Shown: piece after piece, positions 33,057-40,515 of the stretch
Numbering within the stretch: position 1 is the stretch's first letter
How the letters are laid out: each line of letters starts with the position of its first letter
Source of the DNA: Thermoproteota archaeon
GTDB taxonomy: Archaea > Thermoproteota > Thermoprotei_A > Sulfolobales > Acidilobaceae
Assembly (NCBI GenBank): GCA_030549835.1
Contig: JAUQQR010000011.1
Coordinates: forward strand, 1 to 40,515
Direction: 5' to 3'
Length of the DNA: 40,515 nt
Notes under the pieces: generated by a model
Databases searched by the model: none
Seen by the model: only the letters and a program-made list of their open reading frames with translations
What the model was told of the DNA's origin: nothing
Position numbers and translations under genes: made by a program

Positions 33057-33227
33057 TTTAAATGTGCGGAAACAGCCACCTGGCGAGAGAGTAGAGAGCT
33101 TATAAATGAAAGCTTCCCCCAAGGATAGCCCCTATTAGTACTCAAGATGCGGGGTGCCTAGGGGTCGCCCTGAGCGCCCACAGAGGGTGATGAAAGCCCA
33201 AGACAGATGCGGGGGAACAAGGGATGA
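33057..33227 (+). pseudogene. Decayed tnpB 3' tail with three nonsense codons
   Basis: One frame reads '...NESFPQG*PLLVLKMRGA*', then 'GSP*', then 'APTEGDESPRQMRGNKG' and TGA 33225-33227. The two late stops fall where Trp and Arg codons (TGG, CGA) would give a smooth tnpB-like C-terminus. The stop is followed by GGCTATGAAATCACC, similar to GCTATGAAACCCG beyond the tnpB tail at 33646. GC-rich hairpin-forming sequence stands out against the AT-rich surroundings. Probably an old IS200/IS605-type right end. Confidence 0.5.
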
Positions 33228-33284
33228 GGCTATGAAATCACCAGATATAAACCAATATAAGAGCTGAACCCCTGTAGCCTTAGC

Positions 33285-33644
33285 TCAGTATCTATGCTCA
33301 TATGTCTTATTTTTCTCTATTATATGGATTACCTTGTAGCCTCTATCTGCTATGTCGTCAGATATAAATCTTCTATGGCATTTAAACCATAATTTCTCTC
33401 TACACATTAATGCTATGCTGTCTTTCTCCTCTATTATCTCTAGAAGTTTTTGTAATCCAGTTTTGTATTCTTGTGTCTCCTTATACTTAATGTATCCACT
33501 ACTGAAACCTCCTAGATATTCTCCAAGCCAGTAATACTCTATATTCTCTCTTCTAAGAATCTCCTCTAAGCTCTCCCTCCTAACCCATGGTACAACCCTA
33601 CTTATAGGAAACCTCCTAACATCTACTAAAATCCTAATATTATA
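33285..33644 (-). pseudogene. DUF488-family gene, 3' two thirds, cut off from its start
   Basis: The frame from 33644 to TGA 33285 encodes 119 residues of a DUF488 protein: 'NIRILVDVRRFPISR', 'IEYYWLGEYLGGF', 'IALMCREKLWFKCHRRFISD' and 'GYKVIHIIE'. It has no start codon or N-terminal TIGHS motif. The 5' side abuts the tnpB/right-end fragment at 33646. The missing N-terminus is found on the other strand at 40093-40160, next to an inverted copy of the same fragment. Split by IS insertion and later inversion; non-functional as arranged. Confidence 0.85.
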
Positions 33645-33645
33645 C

Positions 33646-33748
33646 GCCTATGACATGGGCCCCGATGAAATGGGGCTCTGAGGCCTGTGAAGCCAAGGGT
33701 TGAGCGGGTGATATGAAAATATATCACCTGCTATGAAACCCGAACCCC
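33646..33748 (+). mobile_element. Solo tnpB 3' end plus right-end hairpin, copy B of a 103-bp inverted repeat
   Basis: It encodes the last eighteen codons of a tnpB-like frame ('PMTWAPMKWGSEACEAKG', stop TGA 33701-33703). A hairpin follows, GGTGATAT-GAAAA-TATATCACC type, then CTATGAAACCCGAACCCC. It is 100/103 identical to the reverse complement of 40161-40263. Its left end abuts the DUF488 3' part; its right side leads to the broken solute-binding protein gene. It is the right end of an IS200/IS605-family element whose 5' part is gone. Confidence 0.8.
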
Positions 33749-33780
33749 TAACATACCTATAGGGATAAGACTATAGAGGA

Positions 33781-34157
33781 TGGTTCCAGCCCCGAATATA
33801 GCCTTGTTTATTATCTATGTTCTATCTAATGCTGCTGCTATAGCCTGCCTCACAAGCTTCTCATTGGAGGGAGGAGCTCTCACATTTAATACAAAAATAT
33901 CTTATAAATGATCCTGGAACCTCTATTACCTTAAAGCCTTTAATCTTCATGAAGTAATCTATATCTTGAGGTAGTAGAGTCCTCCAAGCTATATCTATCT
34001 CGCCCCTCTCTAGGGCTAATCTGAGACTAGCAGCATCTCTATAGAATCTTATAATCATCCTTTTAGTCATAGGTTGGGTCCCATGATAGTATGGGTTAGC
34101 TTCTAAGACTATCTCAACATCACTAACAAACCATAGTAAGCATCAATTAATATTAGT
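33781..34157 (-). pseudogene. Broken family 5 extracellular solute-binding protein fragment
   Basis: The minus strand reads 'EIVLEANPYYHG', 'MIIRFYRDAASLRLALERGE', 'IDIAWRTLLPQDIDYF', 'FKVIEVPGSFIRYF'. After a frameshift in the T run near 33895 it continues 'VLNVRAPPSNEKLVRQAIAA' 'ALDRT', then TAG where Glu is expected, then 'IINKAIFGAG'. This is the middle of an oligopeptide-type ABC binding protein (SBP_bac_5), lacking both ends. At least one frameshift and one nonsense change show decay. The break lies about 30 bp from the IS fragment at 33646-33748. Confidence 0.8.
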
Positions 34158-34545
34158 GTTACTATCATGACACCATTTAATATGACTATATTCCTAGTTG
34201 TTAAGGACATGTCAATACATACTTTAAATGATAGTCTGTAGCTTAAAACTTATAAAACTTATCTAAGATTTTAATGTTCCCTACTAGTCAAGAGAAAGGT
34301 TCTACATATAGGTTTGTCAATAACATTTACAAAACAGAGAGTCTAGGAGGACTTAGCTCTGAAAGCTCCCCTAACCATTATGTTAATGGAGATACTATGA
34401 TATTAGAACTAGAAATGAATGAATCCAAGAATATTTGAGTTCTATCATCCTTAAACTCAAATATCTCTAATACTATCCTCTATAACCCTCTTCATTATTT
34501 GAGCTCCATATACTAACTTTACTATGGCCTCATCCGTTTCCCATC
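34158..34545. other. Gene-poor spacer with an 11-bp inverted repeat and an unidentified 3' coding scrap
   Basis: A perfect inverted repeat ATATTTGAGTT (34431-34441) / AACTCAAATAT (34454-34464) lies here. On the minus strand just upstream of it, about 25 codons ending 'YGAQIMKRVIEDSIRDI' stop at TGA. I cannot assign them, and they begin at the IS right end near 34545. The rest shows nothing recognisable. Confidence 0.35.
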
Positions 34546-34555
34546 ATAGGTATTT

Positions 34556-34660
34556 TTAGGATGGGTTGTGCCTCCTGTCCTGCGCTTCGCAGCTGCTACC
34601 AAGCCACTCCACGCGGGAATCATGGGAACCCTTCGAGCTTAACGGCACAAGGGCCCACAT
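34556..34660 (-). mobile_element. Solo tnpB 3' end of an IS200/IS605-type element
   Basis: From 34660 the minus strand encodes 'MWALVPLSSKGSHDSRVEWL' and 'GSSCEAQDRRHNPS', then TAA (34558-34556). The following AAATACCTATGATGGGAAACGG is like the sequence after the tail at 21533. GC-rich hairpin-forming DNA (for example CTGCGAAGCGCAG) contrasts with the surroundings. No upstream tnpB remains. Confidence 0.55.
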
Positions 34661-34850
34661 CTAATTTTTATCCCTAGGATGAAATGAGAGAATCAAACCT
34701 TATAAACCTAACGCGCCAAAACAGCTATCATCCCTATACATACAACTCCTGAATTATAAAGTCTTAAGTTACCGGTGTCTTTGACTGCTTTTATGGTTTA
34801 GGAGATTATTCTTATGTAGAAGTTTACAAGAGTTTATATATACGTCTGTA

Positions 34851-35300
34851 CTAATTACTGATTACATCTAGTATTTTTTTAGTCTTTAACTCTACACATA
34901 CACCTTTATACTCCCTCTCTAGTTTGAATAATAGGTTTTCAACTTTAATCTTAAACCCCAGCATGCTACAGAACTTTAATGTTTTACTCTCGTAGCTTCT
35001 AAAATTAGATTCTACATCTAGTACACCACTAGAATAATACTCCATAGTAGCCTCATCAGTCTTGATATACTCGCCTCTTATTACATCACCTAGTTTAAAG
35101 CTAAGCTCTACTGGGGCTCCAGTAATACTATTAATGAATAGTATCTTTAATCTAGACTCGCATAATACCGGGATTGCTAAGTCTTGCTCTCCCTCTACAG
35201 TAATATAAACTATGGTCAGTTCATATAGTATTAATAGGAAACTAGTAGTTATTAGGGTTAGAAATGTTAATACTAGTAGTACTACTTTAATCTTAGCCAT
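34851..35300 (-). CDS. DUF1850-family protein associated with TAXI TRAP transporters
   Basis: 149 residues from ATG 35300, or 154 from TTG 35315. An N-terminal hydrophobic segment (signal or anchor) leads to 'LKILFINSITGAPVELSF' and 'YIKTDEATMEYYSSG', the DUF1850 core. Such proteins are commonly encoded beside TAXI-type TRAP permeases and are probably extracytoplasmic accessory factors; the mechanism is unknown. It is last in the order receptor-permease-DUF1850. Two cysteines (in 'PVLCES' and 'GVCVEL') could form a disulfide. Confidence 0.7.
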   Translation of the reverse strand: MAKIKVVLLVLTFLTLITTSFLLILYELTIVYITVEGEQDLAIPVLCESRLKILFINSITGAPVELSFKLGDVIRGEYIKTDEATMEYYSSGVLDVESNFRSYESKTLKFCSMLGFKIKVENLLFKLEREYKGVCVELKTKKILDVISN

Positions 35301-35444
35301 CCATCTTACCCGCAACTCCTTAAACCCATTAGTATGCTAGCTTTTAGGACTCTTATATAAATTACAAGCTACTATATATCTCCTATGAAAGTATGAGAAT
35401 ATAGTTAATAGCTAGTTAGAGGTAATTAGAGGAGGGGAACTAGA

Positions 35445-37589
35445 TTACATTGAAGTTTTTACTTTCCTACTTCTTAATTCTAGGAGTACGAGTAGAGATA
35501 GCCCTAGTATTAGGCTAGCTAGGTTGAGTTTCTCAGATGGTATTATAAGCATTGTACCGAAAATGTATAGTAATATCTTGCCTAATAGTGGTAGAGGTTT
35601 ATTCCTACCGTAGTAGCCAGCATTAGCCATGGATATGAACCATGTTCCAGCTATGATTGCAGCTAATCTAGTAGTTACTAGTAGTATAGTCTCTTGCATA
35701 CTCGCGGTAAGAGCTATTGGAAGTATAAGTATAGATGCTCCCCAGTATGACCATATAATACTCGGCGCATATAGGTACTTTGGTATTGCTACAAGAGCAG
35801 CCTTCACGCCTACTCTTATCGGGTTTAAATTGTAAATAGCTGCTATAGCAAAGTTTGAAAGACCTACCGGGGGAGTTATATCTGCTAGCATTGCCATATA
35901 GAATAGGAACATATGTGTTGCTAGAAGAGCAACTGTCTCTGGTATTCCAGAGGCTACAGCTAGCTTTACAATAGCTGGAGCTGTAAGTACAGATGATAAT
36001 ACGTAGGTAGCTGTAGGAGGAACCCCCAACCCTAAGATTAATGAGAATACTGAAGCAAATATTATCGCATATGCGAGATTACCACCTAAGAGACTTAATA
36101 ATGCTAGAGTGAACTTTTGATGTAACCCAGATACTACAACCATAGCCATAATAACATTAGCTGCAGTTATACTAGCTCCTATGGGTATAAGGAGTCTTAT
36201 ACCATTAACAAAACCATTAGGGAGATTCCTAATATTAGGTCTCAGCTCTTTATCTAGTAAAGCTAGTATTATAGACGCAATTAAAGCTATTGTTACTGCT
36301 AATCGTACGGTATATCCTTGAAATATAAGTGATAATATAGTAATTACTGGAACGAATGGTATCAAGAATCTAATATTAAATCTTCTAGTCACCTGCACAT
36401 CTACAGGTCTTATATTAGCTCCTCTAACATAATACTCATTATATAGTAGTATAGATAGAACATATAATAATGCTGGGACTATAGCCATTATTATTACCCA
36501 TGTATATGGAATATTTAATATTTCTACCATAACGAAAGCTGCAGCTCCAAGAATTGGAGGGGTGATTATAGCTAGTGTTCCAGCATTAGCCATAATACCT
36601 GCAGCTGTAAGATCTGGGTATCCAGCAGCTTTAAATATATGTCTCATAGTCGAACCTATAAATGCTGTATCAGCAGCACCTGATCCAGATATCATCCCCA
36701 TACCAAGACCTAAACCGACAGAGACTCTTCCAGGACTTGCCGGGTCTCTACCTAATAATGTGAAGAATGCTCTAGCTAATATATCCCCATAGCCGAGAGC
36801 TGCTAGTACCCCTGCGAGAATCGTAAAGTAAGCTATATAGATGAGCGAAACATTTGTTATTATACCAAAGAGTGCACCTTCAGTTTCACTATATATCTTA
36901 GCTACCAGGAAGTCAATATCAAAACCTGGATGATACCACGGCCTAGGCAACATATACCCATATATATTATATAATATGAATATATTTGTAAGTATTGGTA
37001 GCTCAGGACCTATATATCTTAAGACAATACCAAATAACATTAATGTTATAGTCCATCCCATTGCGATATCCCATGGGTGAGGAATTACTGTTCTATAAAT
37101 GAGTTCTTCATAGTTAATTATAAGATAAGTATAGGGTAGAGTTGTTAGGATAGCAGTTAGTAGACTCGCATACCTAGACATACTACTTATAATTCTACTT
37201 AAAGGCTCTAATACTGGTAGAGCTAGGGTAGTAAACCAGACGAGAAGTACATATAATGCTGGGATAAGAGCCTCATTATCAATAAGCCACTCTATAGCTA
37301 GATATGTTGGAATTAAGCTTAATACAGCTAAAATTAACGCAATGAACCATCTTAAACCTAAGCTTAAGCTATGCTCTCCTCCTCTAATGTAGAGTAGTAG
37401 GTAGCCGAGAATTAAGATAAAGAAGACATGTGTAGCTCTTTGAAGTTGTGTTAAGTCGAGGATACCAATTCTATAATAGTATGAGATTGGTGTATGAGGG
37501 TGGATTATGAGATATATGTGATAAAATGTAGCTATAAGTGCAATTATGAAAAAAACCTTAGCTGTAATATCTCTAGGGTTTAGCCTCAT
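35445..37589 (-). CDS. TAXI-type TRAP transporter permease, fused 4TM/12TM subunits
   Basis: 714 residues. The N-terminal part is the four-helix DctQ-like domain and the rest the DctM-like domain, as in '4TM/12TM fusion' permeases. DctM marks include 'GMISGSGAADTAFIGSTMRH', 'MANAGTLAIITPPILGAAAF', 'LGLGVPPTATYVLSSVLTAP' and 'DITPPVGLSNFAIAAIYNLN'. It is a secondary uptake system for organic anions, driven by Na+ or H+ with the binding protein encoded upstream (11-bp gap). Confidence 0.92.
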   Translation of the reverse strand: MRLNPRDITAKVFFIIALIATFYHIYLIIHPHTPISYYYRIGILDLTQLQRATHVFFILILGYLLLYIRGGEHSLSLGLRWFIALILAVLSLIPTYLAIEWLIDNEALIPALYVLLVWFTTLALPVLEPLSRIISSMSRYASLLTAILTTLPYTYLIINYEELIYRTVIPHPWDIAMGWTITLMLFGIVLRYIGPELPILTNIFILYNIYGYMLPRPWYHPGFDIDFLVAKIYSETEGALFGIITNVSLIYIAYFTILAGVLAALGYGDILARAFFTLLGRDPASPGRVSVGLGLGMGMISGSGAADTAFIGSTMRHIFKAAGYPDLTAAGIMANAGTLAIITPPILGAAAFVMVEILNIPYTWVIIMAIVPALLYVLSILLYNEYYVRGANIRPVDVQVTRRFNIRFLIPFVPVITILSLIFQGYTVRLAVTIALIASIILALLDKELRPNIRNLPNGFVNGIRLLIPIGASITAANVIMAMVVVSGLHQKFTLALLSLLGGNLAYAIIFASVFSLILGLGVPPTATYVLSSVLTAPAIVKLAVASGIPETVALLATHMFLFYMAMLADITPPVGLSNFAIAAIYNLNPIRVGVKAALVAIPKYLYAPSIIWSYWGASILILPIALTASMQETILLVTTRLAAIIAGTWFISMANAGYYGRNKPLPLLGKILLYIFGTMLIIPSEKLNLASLILGLSLLVLLELRSRKVKTSM

Positions 37590-37600
37590 ATTATTCTACC

Positions 37601-38716
37601 TTAGTTTAGTATCCCTACTTCTCTATAATACCTCAGAGCTCCTTCATGGTAAGGTATTACTCCCCCATAGAATATTAGTGCATTCTCTAACCTAGTATCT
37701 TTTGCTGGAGCAACTGCTTTATGAAGTATACTTAGATGCTCAAACACAGTCTTAGTTATCTTATAAGCTACATCTACAGGTGTATCCTTATGGCATACGA
37801 ACATATTCCAGAATGTTAAAGTTGGAGTATCCTCGGGAGATCCATAGACATCTTTAGGTATTACTCCAGGAGCGGCTAGTCCTGGGTATTGAGCAGAGAA
37901 TGCCAATGCTGTAGGTTCATCTATAGGGACTAGGTAGATCTGTTTACCTCTAAGTGCTAGACTCTTAGCTAGCTCGAGAACAGACCCTGTAGGTAGCCCT
38001 CCACTCCAGAAGAATGCGTCTAGAGCTCCTTCTAATAATAGTTTAGCACTCTCAGCAGGTCCTAATCTCTCCCATTTCGAGAAATCTCTATCAGGCTTAA
38101 TTCCTACCAGTTCTAGGACTAGAAAAGCCTCAATCTCTGTTCCACTACCTGGAGGGCCTGTCGAGACTCTCTTACCTTTTAAATCTAGGAGACTCTTAAT
38201 ACCAGAGTCCGTTGTTGTTACTACGTGTAGATAGTTGGGGTACATAGCCCATAATATTGCTATTGGTGCTGGATTATCTTTAAATCTTTCATGTTTACCT
38301 GTATATGCTAAGTATGCTGAATCTGGTAGGACAAGCCCACAGTATATTACACCTCTTCTTAAATCGGTTTTATCTCTAATTAGTAATAAGTTATCTATAC
38401 TAGCTGCTGTATGGATACTTGTAGCCTCGATATCCGTATAGTTAGCTATAATACCTGCAACAGTAGCACCATAATAGAAGTATACACCACCAATAGTTCC
38501 CGTTGCTATGATAATACTATACTTAGCAGGTGGAGTAGGAGTAGGGGTTGGAGATGGAGACGGTGTTATAGTTGGAGTAGGAGTAGGGGTTGGCGTTGGA
38601 GACGGTGTTGGTGCTGGGGCTGTATATCTAGAAATATAGAGTGCTGCTAGTAGAATTATTAGTATAATAATAAGTGCAGTAGCATATATCGTGTAACGTG
38701 ACATACTACCCACCAT
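37601..38716 (-). CDS. TAXI-family TRAP solute receptor with membrane anchor and Thr-Pro linker
   Basis: 371 residues. An N-terminal helix (about 9-30) anchors the protein. A Pro/Thr/Ser linker 'TPTPTPTPTITPSPSPTPTP' follows, common in archaeal binding proteins. The receptor domain reads 'IIATGTIGGVYFYYGATVAG', 'GKRVSTGPPGSGTEIEAFLV', 'LGPAESAKLLLEGALDAFFW'. Known TAXI ligands include glutamate-like and dicarboxylate anions; the ligand here is unknown. Start is ATG 38716, or ATG 38704. It is divergent from the CoA-transferase gene, which may act on the imported acid. Confidence 0.9.
   Translation of the reverse strand: MVGSMSRYTIYATALIIILIILLAALYISRYTAPAPTPSPTPTPTPTPTITPSPSPTPTPTPPAKYSIIIATGTIGGVYFYYGATVAGIIANYTDIEATSIHTAASIDNLLLIRDKTDLRRGVIYCGLVLPDSAYLAYTGKHERFKDNPAPIAILWAMYPNYLHVVTTTDSGIKSLLDLKGKRVSTGPPGSGTEIEAFLVLELVGIKPDRDFSKWERLGPAESAKLLLEGALDAFFWSGGLPTGSVLELAKSLALRGKQIYLVPIDEPTALAFSAQYPGLAAPGVIPKDVYGSPEDTPTLTFWNMFVCHKDTPVDVAYKITKTVFEHLSILHKAVAPAKDTRLENALIFYGGVIPYHEGALRYYREVGILN
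38532..38609 (-). repeat. Internal 36-bp direct repeat (period 42) encoding the Thr-Pro linker
   Basis: Two nearly identical 36-base units begin at 38532 and 38574 within the TAXI receptor gene, differing at two bases. They encode the Pro/Thr/Ser-rich linker and probably change in length by slippage or unequal recombination. Confidence 0.7.
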
Positions 38717-38811
38717 ATAGTCACCACCACATGCTCAAATCAGATAGTTTTACTGAGAGTTTATATATTTATATTAAAACAATTTAAGTTTACATACATA
38801 GAAAAGTATTT

Positions 38812-40017
38812 ATGGTGTTTATTTTGTATCTAGGTAGTTTTAGGGTTTTAGATTTGACTAGATCTCTTGCTGGTCCTTTTGCTACAATGATTCTAGGCGA
38901 TCTTGGTGCTGAAGTTATTAAGGTTGAACCCCCTGGAGGCGATGAGACTAGACTCTGGGCTCCATTTATTGATAGTGAGAGTGTATACTTCCTATCAATC
39001 AATAGGAATAAGGTAAGTATTGTTATAGACTTGAGGACTCCCGAGGGTAGAGATATCTTATATAGGCTCGCTAGAGTTAGTGATGTCCTTATCGAGAATT
39101 TTAGGTCTGGAGTTACTGAGAAGTTAGGTATAGATTACAAGACTATTAGGGGTATCAATGATCATATAGTATACTGTTCAATTAGGGGATTCGGATCCGG
39201 TAGCCCTTACGAGCATAAGCCAGCTTATGATCTTATAGTTCAAGCTATGAGTGGTATAATGACTTCAACTGGTGAAGATGGTAGACCCCCGGTGAGGGTT
39301 GCTTTCGCGCTTTTCGATATGATTGCTGGTCTTATAGCTGCAAACTCTATATTAGCAGCTCTATTAGAGAGGCAGAAGAGTGGTAGGGGTAGTTATATTG
39401 AGGTTTCACTCTATGAATCGGCAGTTTTTGCTATGAGCTATATCGCTATGATATATCTATTAAAGGGGGTGAAACCTAAGAGGTATGGTCACGCTCACCC
39501 ATCAATAGTCCCATACCAGGCTTTCCAATGCTCTGATAATAAGTGGATAGCAGTCGCTGTAACTAATGATAGATTCTGGAACAACCTCTGTAAAGCACTA
39601 AACTTAAATAATATATGTTTAGACCATAGGTTTAAGAGCAACCCTGATAGGGTTAGGAATAGAGAAGAGCTCATTAAAATACTAGAAGAAATCTTTAGTA
39701 AGAAACCTAGGGATTACTGGCTAAAACTACTAGATGAATATGATGTACCTGCAGGCCCAGTTTATGAAGTAGATGAAGTATTCGAAGATCCCCATATAAA
39801 ATCATCAGGCATAGTAGGAGTAGTAGAGCATAGTAAGCTAGGTCAAATAAAACAACTACTATACCCAGCATTAATAAACAATGAAAGACCTAAACCCCAA
39901 AGGGCTCCACCAGTACTAGGAGAGCATACAGTAAAGATAATGAGAGAACTAGGATACACTGAACAGCAGATACAAGAGCTAATAAAGAAAGGAGTAATAT
40001 CAGCCGCATCCTACTAG
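38812..40017 (+). CDS. Family III CoA-transferase (CaiB/BaiF type)
   Basis: 401 residues. Family segments: 'RVLDLTRSLAGPFATMILGD', 'GAEVIKVEPPGGDETR', 'LSINRNKVSIVIDLRTPEGR', 'DVLIENFRSG', 'PAYDLIVQAMSG' with the Asp of 'AYD' at the nucleophile position, and 'SLYESAVFAMSYIA'. It moves CoA between acyl-CoA and a free carboxylic acid. A TATA-rich stretch lies about 38760-38775. Start is ATG 38812, with TTG 38824 an alternative closer to the family's usual N-terminus. The divergent TRAP operon suggests import and activation of one organic acid (inference). Confidence 0.9.
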   Translation: MVFILYLGSFRVLDLTRSLAGPFATMILGDLGAEVIKVEPPGGDETRLWAPFIDSESVYFLSINRNKVSIVIDLRTPEGRDILYRLARVSDVLIENFRSGVTEKLGIDYKTIRGINDHIVYCSIRGFGSGSPYEHKPAYDLIVQAMSGIMTSTGEDGRPPVRVAFALFDMIAGLIAANSILAALLERQKSGRGSYIEVSLYESAVFAMSYIAMIYLLKGVKPKRYGHAHPSIVPYQAFQCSDNKWIAVAVTNDRFWNNLCKALNLNNICLDHRFKSNPDRVRNREELIKILEEIFSKKPRDYWLKLLDEYDVPAGPVYEVDEVFEDPHIKSSGIVGVVEHSKLGQIKQLLYPALINNERPKPQRAPPVLGEHTVKIMRELGYTEQQIQELIKKGVISAASY

Positions 40018-40092
40018 CAACTCAAATCAACAAACTCACAGCTCAATCAATATAGGAGTGAAATCTCTCCTCCTTCATGAGGTGTCTATGAT

Positions 40093-40185
40093 ATGAGAAA
40101 AATTGTATATACAATAGGTCATAGTAATAGGAGTGTTTACGATTTCATAGAGTTATTAAGGGGGTTCGGGTTTCATAGCAGGTGA
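40093..40185 (+). pseudogene. DUF488-family gene, 5' end only, cut by an IS remnant
   Basis: ATG 40093 follows GAGGTG and encodes 'MRKIVYTIGHSNRSVYDFIE' 'LLRG', the DUF488 N-terminus with its TIGHS motif. From about 40161 the frame enters the inverted IS right-end sequence and stops at TGA 40185. The sequence expected next (NIRILVDVR...) is at 33644-33285 on the minus strand. The promoter and ribosome-binding site appear intact, so a useless 30-residue peptide may still be made. Confidence 0.85.
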
Positions 40186-40406
40186 TATACTTTCATATCA
40201 CCTACTCAACCCTTGGCTTCACAGGCCTCAGAGCCCCATTTCATCGGGGCCCATGTCATAGGCCTCCACCCTTTCAGGGTGACCCCAACCCGCAGCTCCC
40301 CATCATTGCTGCGGGGAAACCCCCACATCCTGGCTTCCAGCTCTACCCTCGCCTCTATAGCTCCACCCTCATCGAATATCTTTAATAGTAGGTTAGAGGG
40401 GAACCC
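40161..40406 (-). mobile_element. tnpB 3' fragment plus right end, copy A of the 103-bp inverted repeat
   Basis: On the minus strand an open stretch from 40406 encodes about 66 tnpB-like C-terminal residues, including 'IFDEGGAIEARVELEARMWG', 'FPRSNDGELRVGVTLKGWR' and 'PMTWAPMKWGSEACEAKG', with stop TGA at 40208-40206. The right-end hairpin follows to 40161. Positions 40161-40263 are the inverted near-copy of 33646-33748; the rest extends further into tnpB than copy B. An in-frame TAA at 40409-40407 and the lack of catalytic motifs show it is a remnant. Confidence 0.7.
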
Positions 40407-40515
40407 TTATAAACTTTGTCTATATCAACCAATATTAACAGATATAAAACCAGAAACAGCTGCGTTAGGCCATATTGATGCTTTCAAAGGGAAATATGGT
40501 GATAAGAATTTAGAG
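40407..40515 (+). other. Unidentified open frame running off the right edge
   Basis: A plus-strand frame is open to the window end and reads 'LYQPILTDIKPETAALGHID' 'AFKGKYGDKNLE'. It has no start codon or ribosome-binding site in view and continues upstream across the tnpB relic. I do not recognise it. It may be part of another mobile element or chance. Confidence 0.25.

Follow-up and report, generated by a model that had tools for sequence, protein, structure and literature searches.

A segment of about 6.4 kb (33749-40160) has very probably been inverted in this genome of an archaeon of the Acidilobaceae through one recombination between two IS607-type insertions that lay in opposite orientations. 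The analysis covered a window consisting of the whole of contig C26 (40,515 bp), which belongs to a 1.42-Mb genome in 68 contigs (96% complete), and genome-wide checks were carried out as searches against these contigs. Although the evidence for the inversion comes from a single assembly, the crosswise arrangement of four flanks makes the event legible in one genome without a reference, and two broken genes, a DUF488 gene and a relic of a dipeptide-type ABC solute-binding protein gene (SBP_bac_5), act as independent witnesses to it. The features on which the argument turns are listed below.

Table 1. Features at the two junctions and within the segment between them, in the order of the window
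Feature	Position	Strand	Remarks
DUF488, C-terminal part	33645-33285	-	...Y-NIRILVDVR to stop; PF04343 E=1.4e-19
Element copy 1	33646-33748	+	103-bp deletion derivative of IS607-type element, without 207 bp
SBP_bac_5 relic, middle part (Y)	34130-33749	-	frameshift and stop
Small TRAP-associated ORF	34851-35315	-	homologues beside DctM in G001, G002, G005, L128, L129
DctM-type TRAP transporter permease	35445-37589	-	PF06808 E=1.6e-51
TAXI-type TRAP substrate-binding protein (NMT1-like)	37601-38716	-	PF16868 E=2.5e-64
Family III CoA-transferase	38812-40017	+	PF02515 E=2.3e-130
DUF488, N-terminal part	40093-40160	+	start codon to ...ELLR, MRKIVYTIGHSNRSVYDFIELLR; residues 1-23 of DUF488 query, E=8.5e-9
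Element copy 2	40161-40470	-	complete 310-bp non-autonomous IS607-type element; carries last tnpB codons
SBP_bac_5 relic, next 15 codons (X)	40471-40515	+	HIDAFKGKYGDKNLE; cut by contig end

Two genes split across the same junctions

It was originally predicted that the DUF488 gene lies in two pieces on opposite strands, each adjoining one arm of an inverted repeat, and the coordinates, the Pfam match and the complementary alignment of the pieces all confirm this. The C-terminal part comprises 120 codons including its stop-terminated end, is free of internal stops, and finds its best match (58%) in the intact DUF488 of G002, a genome of the same genus; the N-terminal part alone is too short for Pfam. 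Against intact homologues, the two parts cover opposite, complementary ends; this holds for homologues both of the same genus (G002 and G005, 55-58% identical) and of the order, all of which align end to end with both parts. When joined, they form a single reading frame (PF04343 E=5.5e-22) that has one residue fewer at the joint than its homologues (LLR-YNIR here versus ILRAYNVK in G002). Furthermore, PF04343 has just one match in the entire 1.42-Mb genome, and there is consequently no second paralogue with which either half could be confused. An origin of the halves from two different DUF488 paralogues, which had been named as an observation that would overturn the prediction, was therefore checked and is ruled out.

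In either orientation of the segment, the DUF488 gene is interrupted by a 103-bp insert that contains an in-frame stop (LLRGFGFHSR*) and whose length is not a multiple of three. Consequently, flipping the segment back would not repair the gene, and DUF488 is dead in either orientation.

If the segment was inverted between the two element copies, then the sequence on the outer side of copy 2 once adjoined that on the inner side of copy 1. These flanks, X and Y in Table 1, are indeed found to pair, and the gene that they make up, SBP_bac_5, had not been seen in the first reading of the sequence; its split is thus an independent test of the inversion, which the inversion passed. The two frames of Y match PF00496 with E=8.1e-9 and 2.1e-5, and Y is 56% identical to a homologue in G053. 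Read on the minus strand, Y gives ...VRQAIAAALDRT*IINKAIFGAGTILYSLIPIGML, and X gives HIDAFKGKYGDKNLE in the same frame, so that the coverage of PF00496 grows from positions 205-250 (35.5 bits) with Y alone to positions 205-266 (40.1 bits) with Y and X together. The joint is spanned by alignments with more than 20 relatives (48-62% identity; for example, YSLVPNGMWSHIDVFKEKYGNANID), and each is one residue longer than the joined reading. X is only 45 bp long, as the contig ends there; it has 12 identities in 15 to the homologue at the expected position, and among the other six-frame 15-mers in the window, 12 of 80,832 reach even 6 identities. Searches of the other contigs did not turn up the remainder of the gene. 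Stops are absent from the DUF488 parts, whereas the SBP relic has both a frameshift and a stop, a contrast which indicates that the SBP gene decayed earlier or faster than DUF488.

The four flanks thus re-pair crosswise into DUF488 and SBP_bac_5, as inversion between two inverted elements predicts, and both rejoined genes are without exactly one codon relative to their homologues. Two opposite insertions and one exchange account for every junction. One could instead suppose that there was no inversion, that rearrangements of unrelated origin broke DUF488, and that both the repeat and the match to SBP arose by coincidence. The DUF488 gene of relatives adjoins neither the Feo nor the TRAP block, a sign of past reshuffling in this region, but the supposition would demand a chance re-pairing of four flanks and, in addition, the loss of exactly one codon from each of the two genes, and it is barely credible.

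A 310-bp IS607-type element and its deletion derivative

The inverted repeat is real, and its arms (33646-33748 on the plus strand and 40161-40263 on the minus strand) lie where they had been predicted; they are 103 bp long and identical at 100 of 103 positions (97%), a first delimitation having given a longer repeat of 116 nt at 92%. The arms had been taken for the right ends of IS relics. This description suits copy 1, which is a deletion derivative, but not copy 2, whose ends are set by other copies in the genome. In a search with 40161-40515, four genomic copies diverge at the same base of the left end, GCCTAACGCAGC (40470; C47:27159, C21:8491, C15:39), and the right end, ...GAACCCC, is common to three copies (copy 2, copy 1, and contig C52:29). 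Since the ends of the element are defined by independent copies, copy 2 is the complete element.

Copy 1 corresponds to positions 208-310 of this element. In copy 2, a 5-bp direct repeat, GCCTA, occurs at position 1 and again at position 208, and copy 1 is therefore explained by a 207-bp deletion between these repeats; the same deletion explains why the shortened copy still starts exactly at the gene junction. The 103-bp repeat was also considered as a stand-alone mobile unit, but this was dropped in view of the longer, 310-bp form and of the deletion between the GCCTA repeats.

Four other contigs end inside further copies of the element, namely C21 (right end), C15 (left end), C52 (left end), and C47 (right end), and in two contigs the sequence breaks off at an identical base, 39 bp into its left end. 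Thus, the element is multi-copy and breaks the assembly. Contig C26 itself breaks off 45 bp past the end of the right-hand element.

The C-terminus of tnpB carried by copy 2 matches that of an autonomous relative (E=3e-4, 56%). In a related full element, G014:C11, a serine recombinase gene (PF00239 E=1.3e-11) is followed by tnpB (PF07282 E=4.4e-15), and the 3' end of that element is 73% identical to copy 2. The presence of a serine recombinase together with TnpB in this relative identifies the family as IS607; membership of IS200/IS605 was dropped, because the autonomous relative has a serine recombinase beside tnpB. Terminal inverted repeats are absent (left end GCCTAACGCAGC, complement of the right end GGGGTTCGGGTT), and so is a target duplication, both joined genes being 3 nt short rather than duplicated. 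IS607 elements insert at GG or (G)GG without target duplication, and GG is also found at the element termini (PMC6188088). Every left end of the present element reads GCC and every right end CCCC; consequently, the missing triplet would most simply be target sequence that is shared with the element ends and contains GG.

Traces of other elements are present in the vicinity. A repeat of about 163 bp at 33074-33236, beside the C-terminal part of DUF488, has other copies in contigs C21 and C63 (79-86%) and may be another candidate tnpB 3' remnant. In addition, stretches within 34534-34740 are 72-87% similar to contig C30, where they lie beside another tnpB-like 3' end, and these could represent a further degenerate element.

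How the segment would have been inverted

Taken together, these results lead to a model in which two small non-autonomous IS607-type copies would have inserted about 6.4 kb apart in opposite orientations, one into DUF488 and the other into the SBP_bac_5 gene. An exchange between the inverted copies would then have flipped the segment, with its genes for the TRAP permease, the TAXI protein, and the CoA-transferase, so that each element is now flanked on one side by DUF488 and on the other by SBP_bac_5. The 207-bp deletion between the 5-bp repeats in one of the copies came either before or after the inversion. The original prediction of an IS insertion into DUF488 followed by homologous recombination is strengthened by the crosswise split of the second gene; its choice of agent is a different matter, as recombination by the homologous route and by the IS607 transposase are indistinguishable here. 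We nevertheless infer that the agent was not a transposase but homologous recombination, with the common tract of 103 bp (or more) as its substrate; this is the simplest agent and a likely one.

In the transposase alternative, an IS607-type serine recombinase (TnpA) would have acted at the two right ends, with the flanks exchanged at the GG core. Such a reaction would yield an identical product, and contig C62 of this genome carries a fragment of a resolvase-type TnpA. Moreover, an intramolecular inversion would result from subunit rotation on the IS607 paired-end complex (PMC6188088). On the other hand, the tnpB copies of this genome that most resemble the element have decayed, and the shared 103-bp tract makes homologous recombination sufficient. 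We know of no right-end to right-end reaction of IS607, and involvement of TnpA is considered unlikely. A stronger version, in which the transposase made the inversion at the two right ends, the segment still flips, and a non-autonomous IS607 derivative functions as a site-specific inversion site, is yet more doubtful.

The main alternative to any inversion in the cell is an assembly artefact. In this case, the genes would merely have been interrupted, and the assembler would have crossed from one copy to the other, flipping the 6.4-kb segment in silico. The source contig is short, one of 68; the element also terminates other contigs, 29 or 39 bp into its copies, which points to trouble for the assembler; and the longest identical run between copy 1 and copy 2, 59 bp, could confuse a small k-mer. 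However, the two copies differ at three sites, a run of 59 bp is shorter than ordinary short reads, and both copies have been assembled through, with unique flanks on either side. An artefact is thus held to be improbable, and inversion between two element copies is the explanation that is preferred.

The probably inverted segment and its relation to known systems

The genes for the TRAP permease, the TAXI protein, and the CoA-transferase lie whole within the inverted segment. It had been proposed that the orientation of the segment may still switch. In a programmed switch, a flip would change expression or restore a gene; here, DUF488 is dead either way and the genes of the segment are whole, and nothing in the data suggests a regulatory switch. 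The only evident functional consequence is the loss of DUF488 and of the SBP relic, the relic having been broken further.

The uninverted order was found in none of the genomes examined, and in relatives of the same genus the TRAP block stands among different genes. In G002 and G005, which belong to the same genus, the intact DUF488 gene stands behind a nucleotidyltransferase-like gene, away from the Feo and TRAP genes; the neighbours in relatives are likewise different for the Feo block (G001 and G004) and for the TRAP block (G001, G002, and G005). Given these differing neighbours, synteny does not settle the ancestral order.

The small ORF beside DctM had been labelled DUF1850. This label is not upheld, as a Pfam search with a threshold as loose as E=0.1 gave no match for the ORF, although its homologues adjoin TRAP genes in relatives. 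The ORF shares its strand with DctM here, whereas in each of the five relatives examined the two lie on opposite strands (G001/L126, G002/L127, G005/L071, L128, and L129), a difference that suggests a further small rearrangement in the region. In G005 (L071 12631-14373), a second TAXI-like gene, absent here, lies between DctM and the small ORF.

Literature searches on inversions in Acidilobaceae and on DUF488 yielded nothing useful. The mechanism belongs to an ordinary, well-known kind of rearrangement, which is unusually well documented here. The present case suggests that non-autonomous IS607-type elements down to 310 bp, which now share 103 bp, can bound inversions in Acidilobaceae.

Inversions between IS copies have been described in archaea (PMC5495485). 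As in the IS-copy inversions of Lactococcus lactis and Sulfolobus islandicus (cited in PMC5495485), inverted copies bound the segment and the flanks have been exchanged crosswise; in contrast to those cases, the segment here is far smaller (6.4 kb), the shared tract is very short (103 bp today), and the inversion is deduced from one assembly, with no strain in the other orientation. With the IS607 family (IS607, IS1535, ISC1926; PMC6188088), the element shares a serine recombinase and TnpB in its autonomous relative, the lack of terminal inverted repeats and of target duplication, and a GG-containing target, but the copies here are non-autonomous: one measures 310 bp and retains no more of tnpB than its end, and the other is its 103-bp deletion derivative. 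Finally, the element resembles the archaeal non-autonomous IS derivatives known as MITEs, such as those of Sulfolobus islandicus LAL14/1 (PMC3718332), in being a short, multi-copy, and internally deleted IS derivative; unlike these, it is of the IS607 type and without inverted terminal repeats, and thus is not a MITE in the strict sense.
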